Shown piece by piece: positions 20,521 through 44,181 of a DNA stretch of 64,000 nt (position 1 is the stretch's first letter; each line of letters opens with the position of its first letter). A program made the translations under genes and the position numbers. The notes beneath the pieces are model-generated. The model made no database searches. It had not been told where the DNA came from and was given only the letters and a program-made list of their open reading frames with translations. Source of the DNA: Mucor racemosus (taxonomy: Eukaryota; Mucoromycota; Mucoromycetes; Mucorales; Mucoraceae); the NCBI GenBank assembly GCA_027405735.1, contig JAPEHQ010000001.1, positions 1,240,001-1,304,000 of the forward strand, given 5' to 3'.

Positions 20521-22551
20521 ATGACTACAGATCAAGTTCAAGTTGTTTGCCATCCTGTACCTGAGCGTCTTTTAGACGCCTCTAAAAACCCTGTTCCTTT
20601 TGTTAATTCTATGGAACAGTATAAAGCCATGTGGACTGAAAGTGTTGAAAAGCCAGATCAATTCTTTGGAAATGTAAGTTTCTAATGTTTCAATTAGAAA
20701 GATATGATATTAACCTGATGATAGCTTGCTCGTGAATTATTAACTTGGTCAAAGCCTTTTGAAACTGTTCGTCACGGTTCTTTTGCACAAGGTGATGTTG
20801 CTTGGTTCTTGGAGGGTGAACTCAATGTATCTTATAACTGCGTTGATAGACATGCTCTTGCAACCCCTGATAAGATAGCTATCATTCATGAAGGTGATGA
20901 ACCTAATCAAGCTCGTAATATTACTTATGGTGAGTTATTGCGTGAAGTTTGTCAAATGGCCAATACTTTAAAGAATTTGGGTGTACGTAAGGGTGATGCT
21001 GTTGCTATCTATATGCCTATGATCCCTGAGGCTATTGTTGCTATGCTTGCTTGTGCTCGTATTGGTGCTGTTCATTCTGTTGTATTCGCTGGTTTCTCTT
21101 CTGAATCTCTTCGTGATCGCGTCATTGATTGCTCTGCTCGTGTTGTTATCACTTCTGATGAAGGTCGTCGTGGTGGTAAATCTGTTGCTACCAAGCGTAT
21201 TGTTGATGATGCTCTTCGTTCAAACCAAACTCAAGTTGAAAATGTCATTGTTTTCCGTCGTACTGGATCTGCTATTGATTGGGTTGAAGACCGTGATCTT
21301 TGGTGGCATGAGGAGATGGCTAAGGCTAGATCTTTCTGCCCTCCTGAGCCAATGAATTCTGAAGACCCTCTGTTCCTTTTGTATACTTCCGGTTCAACTG
21401 GTACTCCCAAGGGAATTTTGCATACTACTGGTGGTTATCTTTTGGGTGCTGCTACAACTGTTAAATACATTTTTGACTACCATGAGGGTGATGTTCATGC
21501 TTGTATGGCTGATATTGGTTGGATTACTGGCCATACTTACATTGTATATGGTCCTCTTGCTTTAGGTGGCACTACAGTCTTATTTGAATCTACTCCCACA
21601 TATCCTAACCCTAGCAGATTCTGGGAATTGATTGAAAAGCACAAGATTACTCAATTCTATACTGCTCCTACTGCTATTCGTGCTCTCCGTCGTCTCGGAG
21701 ATCAATGGGTTGAGAAGCATGATTTATCTTCTCTTCGTGTTATAGGTTCTGTTGGTGAACCCATTAACCCTGAAGCTTGGGATTGGTATAATGAAAAGGT
21801 TGGTAGAGGCCAATGTGCTGTTGTCGATACATACTGGCAAACTGAGACTGGTTCCATCATCATTTCTCCTCTTCCTGGATCTCATTCTACCAAGCCTGGA
21901 TCTGCTACTCTTCCCTTCTTTGGTATTAAGCCCGTCATTCTTGATCCTACCTCTGGTAAGGTTATTGATGAAGTTCATGAAACTGGTGTTCTTGCTGTGA
22001 GTCAGCCCTGGCCTTCTATGGCTCGTACCGTCTTTAATAACCATGCCCGTTTCGTTGAAACATATCTCAAGCCTTACCCTGGTTATTACTTTACCGGTGA
22101 TGGAGCTTATCGTGATGAAGATGGTTACATTTGGGTTCAAGGTCGTGTAGATGATGTTATTAATGTTTCAGGCCATAGACTTTCTACTGCTGAAATTGAA
22201 TCTGCTCTTGTTCATCATGAAGCTGTTGCTGAAGCAGCTGTTATTGGTGGTCATGATGATTTGACAGGTCAATGTATTCATGCTTTTGTTTCTGTTCGTC
22301 CTAATGTCGATGCTTCTGAAGGTCTAGATAAGGAATTAACTTTGTTGGTTCGTAAGATTATTGGTCCCTTTGCTACACCTAAGCGTATCTATATTGTGAG
22401 CGATCATCCCAAGACTCGTTCTGGTAAAATTATGCGTCGTATTCTTCGCAAGATTGTTAACGGAGAGCAGGATTCTCTCGGTGATACTTCCACTCTTGCT
22501 GATCAATCAGTTGTTCCCAACTTGATTGCCCTTGTTCATGGCCCCAAGTAA
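20521..22551 (+). CDS. acs1: Acetyl-CoA synthetase (AMP-forming)
   Basis: Activates acetate with ATP and CoA to acetyl-CoA in the cytosol, needed for growth on acetate and for acetyl supply. Two exons, 20521-20673 and 20725-22551, are separated by a 51-nt intron with a TTAAC branch site, giving 659 residues, the usual family length. Motifs are the ATP/AMP loop [11 protein letters not shown] (about residues 270-280), [27 protein letters not shown], the hinge region [17 protein letters not shown] with [20 protein letters not shown], and the C-terminal [13 protein letters not shown]. The last carries the catalytic lysine that is regulated by acetylation in the family. Exon 1 supplies the N-terminal MEQYKAMW block. 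Codon choice is strongly biased to GGT, GCT, CGT and ACT, unlike neighbouring genes, which suggests high expression. Confidence 0.97.
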
Positions 22552-35359: not shown

Positions 35360-37180
35360 ACTTTATCAAAATTGTTCAGCTCCAATCAAGTTTTCCAGGC
35401 TTTTGCATTTTCATCTTGTAGCCAGTTTTTGACAATACTCATTAATCTAGTAATAAAATCTTGATAAACTACAAGGCAAGCTAACACCAAATTGAATAAT
35501 GATGCAGAAATGACCAACTTAAAGTTAATAAACCGCATTTGAAATGAAAATAAGTGGATAAAATACTAAGGTATTGCAATGATGGGTATTAAGTGAAGTC
35601 TAGATTATTTTTTATTCTCTACCAGGATATCTAGGTTTTGGATGGCTGTAAAGACTTTTTTATTTTTTTATAAATTTTGTGAGTGCACTTTTTCTGTTAT
35701 AGAGATCCATGAAGGGATGACAGGTATGCAAATCTAAAACCATAGGATAGTAATCATTGGCATCTATCTAACGAATTTTACCTCGTCAAAAAATATTGAT
35801 TTTTGGTCGAGAAAATTGAGATTGAATGATTGATTTTTGGTGATACAAAAAAGGATTCATTTTGGACGAGGATATACAAGGAAAAATTTTCGCCGACCAA
35901 AAAAAAAAATCAAAAAAATGTATATCCCCACGAAAAATAGGGCTACAACTACGTATAAATACTCATTCTGTAGATAATTTTGTTGCGCATAATGTGAAAA
36001 TAAAATATTTTAGGGTTGCATTTGAATGAAGGGTACTTTTTGATCAAAAACCGTTAAAATTTGATATTAAATTTACTAGAAAATTTATGAGAAAAATATT
36101 TTCAAAACCTACACAGATCGATTCAGAATTAAAAACTGAACCCAAGATGTTTAATACGCTAGTTCAACTTACTATGCATTTTTGTGAGCAATTAAACATA
36201 CAAGGTTTTTTTTGGATTTTTTTGGATTTTTTTTCCATTTGAACACTTTTTGAATTGAAGCTCAGTCACCTGTGCATATCTGATTATACAATTTTATATG
36301 GTGATATTCAAAATCGGAGTGTGCCCCCATTTCGATAGATAATCAGGAAATAAAAAATGTATGGCTATACTTGTCATGTTACAGAATATTACTGGAAGGT
36401 TAATTTTAATCCAACTTGATCTGTAATCATATATAAATGCATCAAAATTATGACAACATAAGGTTTCCCTCCGCTTAAAGATTCAATTTAAAGTGTCTGA
36501 TATCTCGAGTTTTTAAAAGCTTAAGAACAATTATTGTTCTTAAGCTAAATCTTACTGTTTTGAATATTTTGGCATATTAAAGTTTCAGGGATTTTTATTT
36601 TTTTAAGATTTGGAGGACCCACTGTGACCCATAATCCTAAATTAAAACAAAAACATGTTTTGTTTTTTAGTTTTGACATTTTTTACAAAGGTACGGCGAT
36701 GAGAGATAAATGTCTAATCAAATTGTACTTCAGGCAGATGCGGTAGGCCTTCTTGAGATCCTCTACAGCAGCCTACAAAAAGTATTTTAAGTCTATGCGA
36801 AGTATAAAAAAAAGTATACATATAACAAATCTTTCTCTACGTGCCTCGACAGATGGCACATATCTCATGAAGCGTACACCCATGTCCGTAATTTTGATCT
36901 TGTTTTCGGGATCTGGTATTGTAACGTCTGTTTTATTGTCTTGAATCGTTTAAAGCATTCATGTTCTGTTTTAAAGCATTTCGAGTAAACATGTTTTTCA
37001 ATGTCAATACGCTTCAATAATTTGAAACCGGACCACTGCGCAGTATCTAAGAAGTTATGATTAATTAATTAAAAACTGGTAACCATGATTTAGATTAGGT
37101 GTTTCTTACTCTAAAATGAGCAGCAATTTTAGAAGACGTCAATTATCGCAGTGCTGTTTCATTTGATATATCATTAACAG
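35360..37180. other. Gene-free region with R2-like debris
   Basis: The stretch 35800-36240 shows R2-like phrases (GTTCAACTTACTATGCAT, ACGAGGATATACAAGGAAAA). On the minus strand around 36935-36720 a broken frame reads IPDPENKIKITDMGVRFMRY, then a stop, then AVEDLKKAYRICLKYN. This suggests an old coding remnant of unknown kind. No intact gene is seen. Confidence 0.4.
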
Positions 37181-37182
37181 TA

Positions 37183-37330
37183 TCTTCACCCTGAGACTCA
37201 ACCAGACTCAAGGTATTTTCGATCTGACTTCGAAATTGAGCAGTGAAATTGAAAAATTAAAAAGTATTTTTGAGTCACCCGCTTAAAATATTAAAAATAT
37301 CTTGAGTCTGGTTGAGTCTCAGGGTGAAGA
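37183..37330. mobile_element. MITE, family M2 (148 bp), TA target site
   Basis: Long terminal inverted repeats, TCTTCACCCTGAGACTCAAC at the left and its complement at the right, extend about 37 bp with one or two mismatches. They enclose a short AT-rich centre. TA flanks both sides (37181-37182 and 37331-37332), as for Tc1/mariner-type elements. It lies about 290 bp upstream of the first possible exon of the Fanzor-like gene. Confidence 0.9.
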
Positions 37331-37616
37331 TATTGGGTTTGAGTTGCTTATGCTGAAAAATATGCAAGGACAGTAGTAGTATTCACAAGTTTTGACTTGT
37401 GAAAAAACCTTTGACATGTTGGCAATAAGAGTCGCACAGTAGTTTGCTTCGGTTCATTTGTATTAATAGCCCTTAAAAACACTATAAATAAAGAAAACTA
37501 TCTTTTGATTCTTCTGTATTTACCTAATATATTAGCTACTAAATAATAAATAATCAAAATCTACATACTCGTCATCAATATTTTACTTAAAGCATTATTT
37601 TTATACAAAAAAAACC

Positions 37617-37787
37617 ATGAGCTCCCCATCCCCTACCGAGAATAATATTTGTAAAAGACGTCTTATTGTTGAAGATGAAGAAGAAATCGAAGCAGAAATC
37701 GAAAACCAACATGTTCTCATGGATGCTGTAGATCAAAACCACCCAACGTTTGTACCTTATACTAAAAGTTTCACTAGTTTATGTACG
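37617..37787 (+). CDS. Possible first exon of the Fanzor-like gene (acidic N-terminus)
   Basis: The ATG at 37617 (context AAACCATGAGC) opens a 57-codon frame, MSSPSPTENNICKRRLIVED, followed by a Glu-rich stretch, up to CTV and a TAA. A donor-like GTATAA stands at 37788. The region up to 38017 holds a frame (PNKSFGLIWPHSVSEETPLL, ANIECISID) that looks coding but is bounded by stops. I could not find phases that join exon 1, this segment and the long frame, so the 5' structure is unresolved. It may be broken, or it may use further small introns. Confidence 0.4.
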
Positions 37788-37961
37788 GTATAATATCAAA
37801 ACAACAAAGAAGTTCATATATCTGCAATTAACCTTTTTTAACAACTTGCGAACTTGACATTCTGCAAAACCAAATAAATCATTTGGATTGATTTGGCCCC
37901 ACAGCGTGAGCGAGGAAACCCCGCTGTTGGCCAACATTGAATGTATTAGCATCGACAACAT

Positions 37962-40900
37962 TTGATCTTTCTTTTCTTCTTTGTCTATTGTAATAACATC
38001 TCAATGCACATAAAAAGAAAACAATTAAATATATACGTTCCTGGCACTACAAGGAGAAATTTACCAGCAACTTTGGAAACACAAACAACTAGTCGTAGAA
38101 GAGCAACAACTGATGATGATGAAGCTTATATGAACTCGTTGAAAACTCAATTTAGACATAGAATCATAAAGCATATCAAAACATGCCATGATGAAAACGA
38201 GTCTTTCGATGATTTATACAAAACATTGATGCAGTTAAAACAACTTCCAAGAGGTGTGGTCTCAAGCGCTGAACAGAGCATCAATGCACCAGTAAATTCA
38301 ATCGTAGTGTATCTAAATCGTGTAACAAGAACAGCCAAAAAGAAAAGCATTGAACATTGGAAAGACTATGTAAAAGAAAATTTTGAATCCCTCAAAGATT
38401 CAGTAACGATACAAGAAGAATCCACTGCAGCTCAAGAAGGCATTGAAGAGCAAGAAGAAGTAGATGAAGAAGAACCGGAAGAAATAGATGATAATGAAGT
38501 AGAAGACGACGTAGCACATAGAACTTGCTCTGCATCCTTCTCATCAGTTATTCGAAAGGATTTGCCACAAAATTGTCGATCAACATTCATTGGTACTATC
38601 AATAAAACCATTGAACAAGCTTCAGATTACTTGGCTGATTTCAGCAAGCAAGTAATGAAAATGTTGCTGCTTTTCAAAGACAATCAATTTATCACAAATA
38701 GCGGCAATATTCAATTAGTGTACCAAGAGGGACAAAGTCTCAATCCAGTGTTACCAGTAGGATATCTACACGAGGATGTGATTGTGCCTAAGCCCTTAAA
38801 TAGTCAATTCCTGCAGACTGATAGCCTGAAAGAAGAGTACAATGCATTATTCCAAGAGGCTCACTTTGATCAAATCCATTCAACTTACTTTGGATCAAAA
38901 GGAATTAGCAAATCCACCCTGAATACGGCACGACTTCATAAAGCAATAGTAAACTTACTTGGGCGTGATGAGGAGAATGTTTACAATGATTTGTCGTCTC
39001 ACGTTATGAAAATGGCAAGAAATGTTTATATCGCCAATTTCATGAATATGTGGGCAGATAACACAATCGTAAACAAAGCATTGAACAGGCTCTTGAATAT
39101 TCTATTGATTGTCCATTTATCTCCTGCTCGTGATCAAGAATTCAAGAAGAAACGCGAGGAGCTCAAAGGAAAGAATAAGGGAAAGAATAGACAGCCTCCC
39201 AACAATAATTGTGCCATTCCAGTAAACTCGATGTCACTCATCAACAAAACTTATAATGGACGCAGAAGGCTTTTCGCTGACGAGATTAAAAGAAGAAATC
39301 GTTATATCGAGAAAGGAGGAGATTGGGTTGTCAAGCAATGGAAAGCTAGCTTGTGTCAGCAAAGACTGAACTCATATGCAGATGTTTTGCAAAGAGAGGT
39401 AAGATTGATGGACAATCGAATTGAAAAAGTATATTAAACAACCTTCTTCTAGAAACAAAAGCGGCAAGTGAGACAAGAGCAGTAACGTCAACAAGAAGAA
39501 GAGCAAGGCATCAAAATGCAAGAAGCGTTGGTAGAAGAAGAGATTCAAGATGTTGACATGGAAGATATTTTGGTAGAAGAGGACACCTCGCGAAAAAGAA
39601 TAAACCAGTTAAAGCAGATAACAAGAGCAGCTCTTTTTGAGGAAAAACCAATTTGCAAAGCATATTTTGTTGGTAAATTGAGCAACATTAGCGACAAAGA
39701 AGAGGAGGTCATCTTGAAGATTATTAAATTTGTAAAGCCATACATGGCATCTAGAGCCACATACCATGTCTTTTCACATCAAATTCCCTTTCTCTTGATG
39801 GTTAATCAAGTATTGCGTTCTGTTGGTTACCATGGGCAAGTGGTGAAATTGACCCCCATTATCAGGCCTACAAATCTGCACGCGTTATGGATTGATGCTA
39901 CTACATTACACTCTTTGTTTTGTGCTCGAAAGCTGGAACATAAGATGGTACTCCATGATTTCGAAGGGAACGTCATTCGTGCGGCTTCAGTTACGTCTCA
40001 AAAGGATGCTGTGTTTAGTAGTTTTTTCGACATAGATCGTCTAAAAACAATATGTGCTGGCTACGGGTTGCAATTTGCCTACCGTATGCATGTACTACCT
40101 GGACTTCAATGTGTGAGAATCCTTGGTACTAGGAATTACCAAAAGCATAAACAGAAGAATAAACAGCAAACTCCTGTGACTCAGACATCCACAAGAAGCA
40201 ATGAGATCAACAGCAGAATTGCAGCATTGATTGACCAGAAGACCACAATAGAGAAAAGGTTAAAGGACGCTCAAATTACACTTAATAAATATCTACTTGG
40301 TTCAGAAAGTGCTTCTCAACTGAAAAAAAAATGGAATGATGAAAATATAGATATAGACTCGCTGCATAAAGAGATACCAGTGACCAAGAAAAAGAAGAGA
40401 CAATTGATTCAAGAAGTAGTGAAAGCAAAGCAAGAACTGTCCAGTGCCAATAATGACATCTACAAGCAGAGATATGACGCTACCTCCTCTGCTGAAAGAA
40501 GACAGATAATACCAGTCGAGCCCAACAAGCCTTGCCATCACAAGGTGGAGGAGTGTATTATTGATCAAAAAGTAGATGAAGACCAACTTGTATTTTCAGG
40601 GACAGATAACGGTATTGTCAATGTTACGGAGACAGTTGCTTTTGGTGTCGATAGGTTGAAATATCATCTTCGTTTGTACAATCGCTTTCAAGTATTACAA
40701 GATCAAGGTAATTTAATACTCGTTGATATCTTGCTTCTGGCTAATTTTTAATGCACAAATTTTAGAAAACGCTTATATGGAAGAGAAAGAAGACGCTCAG
40801 TTGAAGAAATTGCCCACATCGTTCAAGATAAGGAGTGCCGCCCTCCGCCAACATAGTGGTCTTGCTTCTTTTTCGTCTTCGCTCAATAGAAGAAAGCGCC

Positions 40901-41616
40901 TCACAGTCTTAGGTCAAAATGTTGCTGACCTTGAAAGTGATCTTTCTGAGTCCAGTATACAGCAATGTGGTACAATTGATGAACTGGATGCAACATTCAC
41001 TCGCCATTCCCAAGCAAAGTCATGTATTCGTCAATTTTACTTTTCAAGATCGAGTGCAAATAAAAAAAGACGATTAGAATTAACGAAAAATCGATTTTAT
41101 GATAGACTTGCATCAAAGGAACGAAAATTTACGAAAGCATCGTCCCCTATTATGTTTATTGGAGATCGTGGGCATGCAATCAGGTCTCCTATTAAAGGAC
41201 ATTTGCGATTTGGTGGATATTGGAAAGAACTGAGACATTCTCGATATACGCCTACATTGATCACAAATGAACACAACAGTTCTCAGACCTGCCTTTGGTG
41301 TTTCAGCAAATTATCACATCCGTATACTGCAAAAGATGGTACAGTCAAGAAGACTAATGGGTCATTCATTTGTTTGAACGATGTCTGCCCAAATAAGTCT
41401 GTCGTCATGAGCAGGGATTGTCTTTCTGCATTAGCGATTGGCCTCGCTGGTGCTGCTCAGCTTATGCTTGGTTACACCTTTCCTTGCTTTGATCCAAAAA
41501 ACACAACAGCGAAACAAGCAATGTTTTCTCAATTAGCTCTGTCATTTTCGGATAGAAAACAGCAGACAAGCTGGCCCTCCGTTGGGGGTAGTACGACGAG
41601 AGCTTCGGCTCTTTGA
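37962..41616 (+). CDS. Fanzor/TnpB-like RuvC nuclease of a eukaryotic OMEGA system, possibly decayed
   Basis: Likely exons are (37962 or 38018)-39398, 39453-40707 and 40766-41616. The introns at 39399-39452 and 40708-40765 have GTAAG/GTAAT donors and TAG acceptors, and together the frames span about 1180 codons. The C-terminal part shows the TnpB/Fanzor pattern. A RuvC-I Asp lies in FSGTDNGIVNV (codon near 40605). PIMFIGDRGHAIRSPIKGH is a RuvC-II-like strand, and a Glu in ITNEHNSSQTC is at 41269. The zinc ribbon is CLWC then CLNDVC, and the RuvC-III Asp is in SRDCLSALAIG (41416). Family members are RNA-guided DNA nucleases carried by transposons. The first 480 codons are a charged alpha-helical region without a recognised domain. 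A TAA at 39483 interrupts an otherwise continuous Gln/Glu/Arg-rich frame, unless a weak alternative acceptor at 39503 is used. The gene may therefore be a pseudogene. Confidence 0.7.
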
Positions 41617-44181
41617 GGTAAGTTTATATTCATTAGACATAACTCAATACTAAATCAATTCATTCTTTAATTCTAAATTCAAATTCACCTTTGGTAAGTA
41701 AAATCCTTCCACATTTGTTACCCAGTCAACTAATCAAATCTCTCTTTCCTTTTTGAACTACTTAGCTTGCTATACCCTCTCAGTATCTTCGGTCTCCTTT
41801 TTAATAGATTTATGGTCTTAATGGGATTTGGTTGTATTGATTTCAGTAACTCCAAGAGATCAAAGTGTTGGTTGCTATAATTTTTCTCAAAGCATTGTTT
41901 TACTGTTATCGGCCCAATATATAGTCATGATCATATCAGTATAATAAGTTACTCTGCTGAGTAGCAGTTTATAACTTACTCTCATTAGTACCAGACGATA
42001 CATCAAACTTCAACACATCTTTTGGTATGGAATTTTCATGATTTGTTTGAACTTTTTGTAACTTTTTAATATAACACTATGGGAAAAAAAAAGTAAATAC
42101 ATGATATCACGAAAATAATGTTATTTTTGATTTTTAATATACATAGTTTAACAAGAAAAATTGTAATGAATCAAATTATCACTATAATAATTCACAGCAG
42201 TAATGCTCATCTCAATTGTTCCTATTAAATACTACTAGGAAATCCTTCCATAATTCCTTGTAGAATTATCTGCCTTTCTTCCTCTTTACATCTTTATTTA
42301 TTTTCCTTAATAAATATCTAATTTACAAATAAGAACACCAACCTTCCTTCAACTAATGTTCACTGATCTCTAATATTAAAAATCATATCATTGGCATATT
42401 ATTTTGACCATAATATTTATCAAAGATCACAGATCATTACACAAAACATGATTAAATTATGATAATGTAAATAAAGAATGCTATTTAATTACATTTACGT
42501 ACATTAATTAATGCTAATGTGGATTATTTACATTATTTACATTATTTATCATATTTTATATATCATATTTTGTCATTATTTTCCCCGTAAAATCATTTTA
42601 TATCTCACGGAGTACTCAAAAACGTAAAATTCGTTACTTTTTCCTTAAAACTATATGCAACTTTTCATTTCTGCCCAACCTTTTCCCGACTAAATAACGG
42701 CAAAACATAACTCACGTTTTTTGCTTCGTGCTTGACCTGACAAGATGAATTGAAAGGCATATCGCTTTAAATGGGCATTTGGGCTATTGTTCATTAATCC
42801 ATCTTCTAGTAATCTAAAATGATAATTACAATGTTTAGATTTAATTATTAGCATCACTTGACTTTTCCAGGGTTTAGTATACTTCCAAATAGGTGAACCT
42901 ATACATTAAATCATGGTAAGGAACCAAAGGACGTGCAAACAGCAAATCCAATCGCATATTTTGAATTGCTGGTTTCAGATCCATCATTTTTATGTTTTAA
43001 ATGTTGTAAAACACTATAAAAACTTAAGAATTTACGTAAATTGTTATAGAGGTAGCCTTTCTTCAGATGTATTAGAGACGTTTTTGATTTCAAAAAAACG
43101 TCGATTTTTGATGGAGATATTACAAAATTTTCGTAAGCCCCATTTTTTTATGCCATAAAATTGCTGTTGTCCAAAAAATTAACGAAAATTTTGATTTTCT
43201 CATCAAAGAATGGTGATAAAACTACAAACAAGCACTTGATCTGTAGATAATAAGCTCTGTTATTATTATATTAGACTCAAATGAGTTTATCCGGCTATAA
43301 TATATAATTTTAGTTGAAAAACCATCGTTTTCAATTTTTGGCCTAAGAAATAAATTTAGCTGATAAATATTCCAAGCAAGTTGCATTAGGAAGAAAATCA
43401 AAATATAACTTAGCTGACACTCATTTTCAACTTACTATAGCGTTTACCGCATAAAATTACATGCGAATTAGTAATGAAATTTGTCATGTTCAAGTTCAGC
43501 TATACAACAATTTCGCAAAAAAAAACTGATTATCATATGCTGATACCTACAAAGATTTATCATTTTTCTCTAAATAAAAACAATGTCATATTTTCAACAT
43601 CTTGATTAATATGTTTGCTAATTTCAGTTTGCATTGGCATAATTTTGTCATGTTGTAGAAATTCTTTAAAAATTGGTTTACAGTAGTAAGCTCTTCTCAT
43701 GTAGTTGCACAAGATGAAGTTAATGTCGATCGACAAGGCCTTGCACTTATTTAGAGATATGTTACAGGTAACACAGTGGAAGTAGCGTTGGATTTCATAG
43801 AATATATTGTACTTCACTCGATATTGGGAATTCAAGAGGCCTCATATACAGTAGAAATATAGCAAAATTATTCTTGAATCAAACTCTAATTTTCATTTTG
43901 ATTTCGAGTGGATTCATGTGTAGCTTTTATAATCTGAAACGGGAGCAAAGTTTTGTTGTGTAAAAACAATACCCTAAAATAGATATGGTATATCGAGAAG
44001 GGGGTCTTACTCCATATCGTCCTACGCATAAATGTCCCGTTTCCAAACTCCAACCACCGCTGCCACATTTTACATTACTTTCCCCCCTCATTTCCTATAT
44101 ATAAACCATCATTAATTTATTAAATGGTCTTCTCCGCTATTTAATCTTTTTCGTTTTCCAAATACTACACATTTTATAACC
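41617..44181. other. Gene-free region 3' of the Fanzor-like gene
   Basis: It contains a GTAAG just after the stop codon and a short palindrome CTGCTGAGTAGCAG at 41955. Repeated TTATTTACA words follow near 42520, and an R2-like fragment lies at 42605-42710. No protein-coding gene is evident. If the element is a true OMEGA unit, its guide RNA and right end would be sought in the first several hundred bases. The last 100 bp before 44182 are pyrimidine-rich promoter sequence of the next gene. Confidence 0.4.

Follow-up and report, generated by a model that had tools for sequence, protein, structure and literature searches.

A probable Crypton-type element of Mucor racemosus with a putative divergent Fanzor as its only gene found

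The window analysed here is a stretch of 64,000 nt of Mucor racemosus DNA (assembly GCA_027405735.1, contig JAPEHQ010000001.1, forward strand, 1,240,001-1,304,000; all coordinates below are positions within it), which harbours a mobile element of family F1 with a single gene found, coding for a putative Fanzor, the eukaryotic relative of TnpB (Table 1). Searching the genome (53.2 Mb, 54 contigs) with the C-terminal open reading frame (ORF) revealed 22 near-complete F1 matches of 97-100% identity, namely the window copy, 20 copies retrieved first and L064 added later; one further, fragmentary copy lies on C2. The F1 element has spread recently. Its sister family F2 is ∼52% identical over the C-terminal ORF and 44% over the entire protein, with introns at the same two places. 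The more distant sister family F3, Fanzor-like as well (∼37% identical, a single frame of ∼1195 aa in several copies) was not pooled with F1 and F2, because its inverted terminal repeats (CTTGAATCTTGC...) and flanking repeats of 7-8 bp, read by eye in two copies (L031, L032), indicate a different type of transposon.

Both ends of the F1 copies carry CAGTAT as a direct repeat, from which L009, L011 and L064 deviate by a single base; the right terminus is CAGTAA in L015 and in the 5′ truncated L010, which has no left end. No terminal inverted repeats (TIRs) were seen on inspection of the ends. The F2 copy C1_35 has CAGTAC at both ends, and CAGTAT is therefore at least partly target-derived. Bases following the left CAGTAT agree with the right flank, in runs of at least 9 bases, in 6 of the 19 F1 copies counted (L012, L014, L018, L020, L024 and the window; L010 and L023, the latter with an F2-type left end, were dropped, and L064 was retrieved later) and in 7 of 9 F2 copies (not in C4_296 and C17; the composites C12, C13 and C26 described below were not included). 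Shuffled pairings reached such agreement in 0 of 5000 cases for F1 and in 5 of 5000 for F2, and some copies thus have bases from the target at either end. In the window copy, CAGTATCTTC at 37178-37187 recurs at 41781-41790; the CTTC after CAGTAT is also the commonest element sequence here and may agree with the right flank by coincidence. Ahead of the left CAGTAT, all 20 F1 copies with an F1 left end have AA, and 9 of 9 F2 copies have T. Copy L023, in which an F1 gene stands between left and right ends of F2 type, apparently because F1 and F2 have exchanged ends, has T at this place, and the flank therefore goes with the ends and not with the Fanzor. A search for empty sites with 29 joined flank pairs gave 143 candidates; the 40 of these that were scored all lay at known copies, and none of the 40 spanned the whole 120-bp join.

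The F1 left end was also found at three other places of the genome (C26, C13 and C12; 95-98% identity over 124-128 bp), so that F1 has an end in common with a recombinase-bearing element (97.7% over 128 bp). In C26, the gene next to this end matches both NDC10_II (E 4.9e-42) and GCR1_C (E 1.2e-23). The two domains are known from fungal Cryptons, the majority of which are bounded by direct repeats of 6 bp (PMC3212892). By its domain matches, a candidate autonomous partner with tyrosine recombinase (YR) and GCR1_C domains is thus present; a search of PDB sequences with the recombinase gave no match. This recombinase occurs at three places of the genome, its 303-residue exon being open in C26 and C13 and falling into two pieces in C12. 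In all three places the F1-type left end and the recombinase are followed by an internal CAGTAT and then by an F2 Fanzor and right end, and the differing left flanks point to a Crypton-F2 composite that moved as a unit; tandem insertion might yield such composites as well. At the right, F1 and the C26 composite have no more than the terminal CCCTCTCAGTAT in common, whereas C12 and C13 end in GTTACAGTAT or ATTACAGTAT as most F2 copies do. The bases before CAGTAT, read by eye, are AA in C26, TT in C13 and AT in C12, and since the right end of C26 is F1-like and those of C12 and C13 are F2-like, the flank bases may go with the right end too. Two F2 copies (C21, F2a), however, have a CTCT-type right end and yet T, and neither a left-end nor a right-end rule covers the data fully. 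Two of 21 F1 copies (L020, L022) contain a 16-bp stretch otherwise found in the Crypton left end. A second family of Crypton-type recombinases (33-34% identity) occupies 42 of the 62 matching places; seven same-strand pairs of its copies lie 2904-2906 bp apart and are probably tandem copies, as integration of a circle at an end would give.

The left 158 bp of the element form a hairpin (DNA fold z -11.7), the inner arm of which includes the end sequence in inverted form. Among 21 copies the loop has one orientation in 13 and the opposite one in three (L020, L021, L025), and it is missing from five. Inversion of the loop would be expected of a tyrosine recombinase acting between inverted core sites. 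The only Rfam matches over the element, to microRNA families and one small RNA, fall at 37179-37334, all below gathering scores, and are due to the palindrome.

The predicted protein has 1166 codons, close to the ∼1180 given in an earlier note made from the letters of the sequence; the start at 37617 given there was not borne out. ATG 38004 is taken as the start codon, because between-copy diversity per 150 bp drops from 2.7-4.0% over 37350-37949 to 0.8% in 37950-38099, this ATG corresponds to the initial Met in the F2 frame and to the starts of gene predictions P0009 and P0010, and codon periodicity is absent from 37617-37787 (variable sites by codon position 10, 9, 9). Mean diversity is 3.0% in 37340-38003 vs 1.2% in coding exon 1; 3′ of 38099 it amounts to 0.6-3.1% per 150 bp, some coding stretches being as variable as the upstream region. 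The frame is open in 18 of the 22 copies and broken in the window copy (premature stop), L016 (stop), L017 (an insertion of ∼0.4 kb within the coding region) and L026 (frameshift). Owing to its premature stop, the window copy is probably dead. Changes from the majority in 19 copies (L017 and L026 left out, L064 not yet included) comprise 157 non-synonymous at 2766 sites and 120 synonymous at 732 sites, a ratio (dN/dS) of 0.35, and variable sites make up 124 of 1166 third codon positions vs 163 of 2332 first and second ones (p 0.0003); the many open copies are thus under purifying selection.

As proposed in the earlier note, RuvC-I Asp, Glu, a CxxC...CxxxxC ribbon and RuvC-III Asp are all present in that order, and the succession of Asp, Glu and Asp fits the Fanzor/TnpB site. 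The Glu stands six residues before CxxC, the displaced position of RuvC-II as defined in a passage of PMC10711439. RuvC-I reads DNG instead of DPG, which is typical of Fanzor without defining it; DNG is found in all 14 rows of alignment A3 that cover the site (the 15th, P0025, does not extend to it). In alignment A5, all 9 sequences have the Glu and each of the four ribbon cysteines, and the RuvC-III Asp is kept in eight, with His in P0022.

The structure prediction that had been suggested as a check favours Fanzor. The model of relative P0006 (30% identical to the window exons over 39486-40706, 36% over 40768-41613) has the Fanzor fold of the RuvC and zinc-ribbon half. The model of P0009, used for the N-terminal half only (in its RuvC part the predicted local distance difference test is mostly <50), has the N-terminal recognition (REC/WED) lobe by the SpuFz1 residue numbers of PMC10432273, Foldseek alone giving a weak match for this half (PpFz, E 0.069). 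Both halves of the modelled relatives are thus predicted to adopt the Fanzor fold, and the models support the F1 protein as a divergent Fanzor. A linking family, L056, connects F1 to PF07282, since it matches F1 in pairwise BLASTP (E 7e-11) and PF07282 with E 7e-4 (20.1 bits, below the curated cut-off of 26.3); together with L061 and L063 it makes up a fourth Fanzor-like family, with a DEY/DEC..CxxC motif. When the A5 profile was compared with four exons of this genome that match PF07282, the resulting hit (E 0.0045, probability 7.7) was taken as weak. The PF07282-positive Fanzor-type exons L057-L060 of this genome were likewise recently copied, three of the four aligning at 98-99% identity. 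Named protein relatives occur in Mucor, Parasitella, Rhizopus, Helicostylum and Backusella, in keeping with the mucoralean genome that had been surmised; beyond the Mucorales relatives there is one weak protein match, in Lunasporangiospora.

Published Fanzors draw their guides from the flank 3′ of the guide RNA (PMC10432273), and by analogy the right-end untranslated region is a candidate place for one. This region matches 23 places at 95-100%, including all 22 copies. No fold signal, no excess conservation and no Rfam match was found in it, so that a guide RNA in the right end is unsupported on these counts and was kept as a lead. The right ends of F1 and F2 are alike (local score 85 vs ≤51 in 500 two-base block shuffles, 0/500), which common descent alone could explain. 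The splice-donor-like GTAAGT occurs at 41618-41623, just after the stop, and again 76 nt on at 41694-41699; the first such site of F2 reads GTAGGT, and the F3 right end has one site.

Table 1. Features of the F1 element in the window.
Feature	Position	Strand	Basis or remark
Whole mobile element, CAGTAT to CAGTAT, ∼4.6 kb	37178..41786	+	copy alignment stops at these borders
Left terminal CAGTAT	37178..37183	+	
Left-end palindrome, loop in either orientation; first 128 bp common to three Crypton copies	37178..37335	+	DNA fold z -11.7
Coding exon 1 (465 codons) with the N-terminal extension and the first part of the recognition lobe	38004..39398	+	copy diversity
Intron, 54 nt, GT-AG	39399..39452	+	predicted
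Coding exon 2; remainder of recognition lobe, RuvC-I	39453..40707	+	
Premature in-frame stop TAA	39483..39485	+	window copy only among 21 aligned; sense codon in 20 others
RuvC-I Asp, residue 850, GTDNG	40605..40607	+	
Intron, 58 nt, GT-AG	40708..40765	+	predicted
Coding exon 3 including stop; RuvC-II, zinc ribbon, RuvC-III	40766..41616	+	
RuvC-II Glu in displaced position (residue 1052), six residues ahead of CxxC	41269..41271	+	
Zinc ribbon CxxC...CxxxxC	41290..41388	+	
RuvC-III Asp, residue 1101	41416..41418	+	sequence reading
Right-end untranslated region; candidate guide-RNA place by analogy	41617..41780	+	
Right terminal CAGTAT	41781..41786	+	

Taken together, F1 is probably a non-autonomous DNA element of the Crypton type, recently spread, in which a divergent Fanzor is the only gene found. 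The Crypton tyrosine recombinase would excise it in trans as a circle, with an expected junction of ACCCTCT-CAGTAT-CTTCACCC, and would join the circle, again in trans, to CAGTAT target sites. In bacterial IS607 and IS605 elements, the nuclease cuts the emptied site and repair recopies the element. By analogy, the Fanzor, equipped with an RNA that runs through the right end and on into the flank, may cut the emptied site beside CAGTAT, the repair of which would copy the element back; this cutting step is proposed because of the bacterial relatives and the published 3′-flank guides of Fanzor. It is conceivable, if rather doubtful, that the two enzymes form a working pair in the manner of IS607 and TnpB, in which the CAGTAT core restored on excision would be the Fanzor motif, the emptied site would be cut and refilled, and both F1 and F2 would ride on the same recombinase, which would also flip the palindrome loop.

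Several results weigh against a Crypton-type element with a Fanzor gene. In the profile test named beforehand in the earlier note (PF07282, TnpB/Fanzor), F1 stayed below significance: PF07282 gave E 0.07 and 13.7 bits vs the cut-off of 26.3, the TnpB/Fanzor models of NCBIfam and PHROGs gave no match, and sequence and profile searches of PDB sequences with the F1 protein found no Fanzor. A PF07282 match was deemed unnecessary for membership, the solved Fanzor fold being what decides. Ordinary recombination between the palindrome arms would invert the loop as well. Finally, Cryptons are marked by the lack of a target duplication, and some copies have target-derived bases beyond CAGTAT; such bases would equally arise from the overlap region used by a recombinase.

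The target-derived bases at the left end, together with the family-specific bases before CAGTAT and the lack of any other gene found in F1, would also suit homing by the Fanzor alone, which would cut CAGTAT-type sites and have the element copied in by repair with short homology at one end and no recombinase. This is unlikely, since the F1 sites, compared by eye, have no longer sequence in common and so would not be accounted for by a guide 15-20 nt long, and a recombinase is available from the three Crypton copies that have this left end; the flank of L023 also follows the ends, not the Fanzor, but only C26 of the three Cryptons has AA. It is very unlikely that the left palindrome is a signal of single-strand (HUH or hairpin) transposition to which the Crypton likeness is secondary. 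The hairpin is very stable, and terminal hairpins matter in IS200/605 elements according to part of PMC3627910; however, five of 21 copies are without the loop, three of which (L015, L018 and L028) still end in CAGTA(T) and have a shorter hairpin, and the F2 left ends (two read, then ten) start with other sequence after the CAGTAT-type core. Amplification by an unrelated route, with F1 as a Fanzor relic devoid of nuclease function, would be in line with the broken copies, that of the window included, and with the fragment on C2, but the 18 open frames, the low dN/dS and the acidic residues kept across genera, with one exception, make it highly improbable.

Outside the element, the DNA at 35500-36390 also lies upstream of the L009 copy (92-94% identity), a second repeat adjoining both insertions. 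Farther away, 20725-22551 holds an open frame of 608 aa, the motifs of which presumably resemble those of acetyl-CoA synthetase.

The reading of F1 as a Fanzor-bearing Crypton-type element implies that the sequence profiles now in use can miss a Fanzor family, and the shared Crypton end suggests how Fanzor nucleases get moved around fungal genomes. Moreover, a single genome combines numerous recent copies with open frames, defined ends and a candidate recombinase, which makes the role of Fanzor in transposition directly testable. The association of Fanzor with Cryptons is already known: Crypton tyrosine recombinases are named among the Fanzor1-associated transposases in part of PMC10711439, and ten Fanzor1 families, one with a truncated Crypton gene and its class left open, are reported from Mucor circinelloides in the relevant passages of PMC3627910. 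Fanzor-only elements with Crypton ends are new as far as seen, no earlier description having been found in the Fanzor, Crypton and Mucor literature, the coverage of which was incomplete.

Of the known elements, MCi-2 of M. circinelloides (passages of PMC3627910) is likewise a Mucor Fanzor element without recognisable TIRs, with a near-identical 3′ and a variable 5′ part and, in one subfamily, a partial Crypton transposase of ∼473 aa with ∼200 aa missing at the C-terminus. A further likeness lies in its target duplications, 11-12 bp long with the pattern ATAATTNNNN(N). Compared by description, the differences are that the core here is CAGTAT and that the partner contains NDC10_II as well as GCR1_C and has an end in common with Fanzor-only elements. 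The present elements thereby bear on the question, left open by the authors of that text in 2013, of whether such odd Mucor Fanzor elements as MCi-2 belong to Cryptons. With SpuFz1, PpFz1 and GtFz1, as far as described in parts of PMC10432273 and PMC11423790, F1 has in common the predicted fold of both halves, the Asp, the Glu beside the zinc-ribbon domain and a third residue Asp (Asn in GtFz1). It differs from them in the lack of a significant sequence match, in ∼165 extra N-terminal residues (P0009 numbering), in DNG and in having CxxxxC as the second ribbon half. Fungal CryptonF elements, in the portion of PMC3212892 that deals with them, also have 6-bp terminal direct repeats and no TIRs, and the YR and GCR1_C domains recur in the partner; unlike them, F1 has no recombinase and carries a Fanzor, has a large palindrome at one end and shows target-derived bases beyond the repeat. 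The IS607 TnpB/Fanzor2 elements, in turn, combine a recombinase with an RNA-guided nuclease, and Fanzor-related TnpBs have the displaced Glu (both from passages of PMC10711439), but the recombinase of IS607 is a serine recombinase, whereas that proposed here is a tyrosine recombinase, which would act on F1 in trans.
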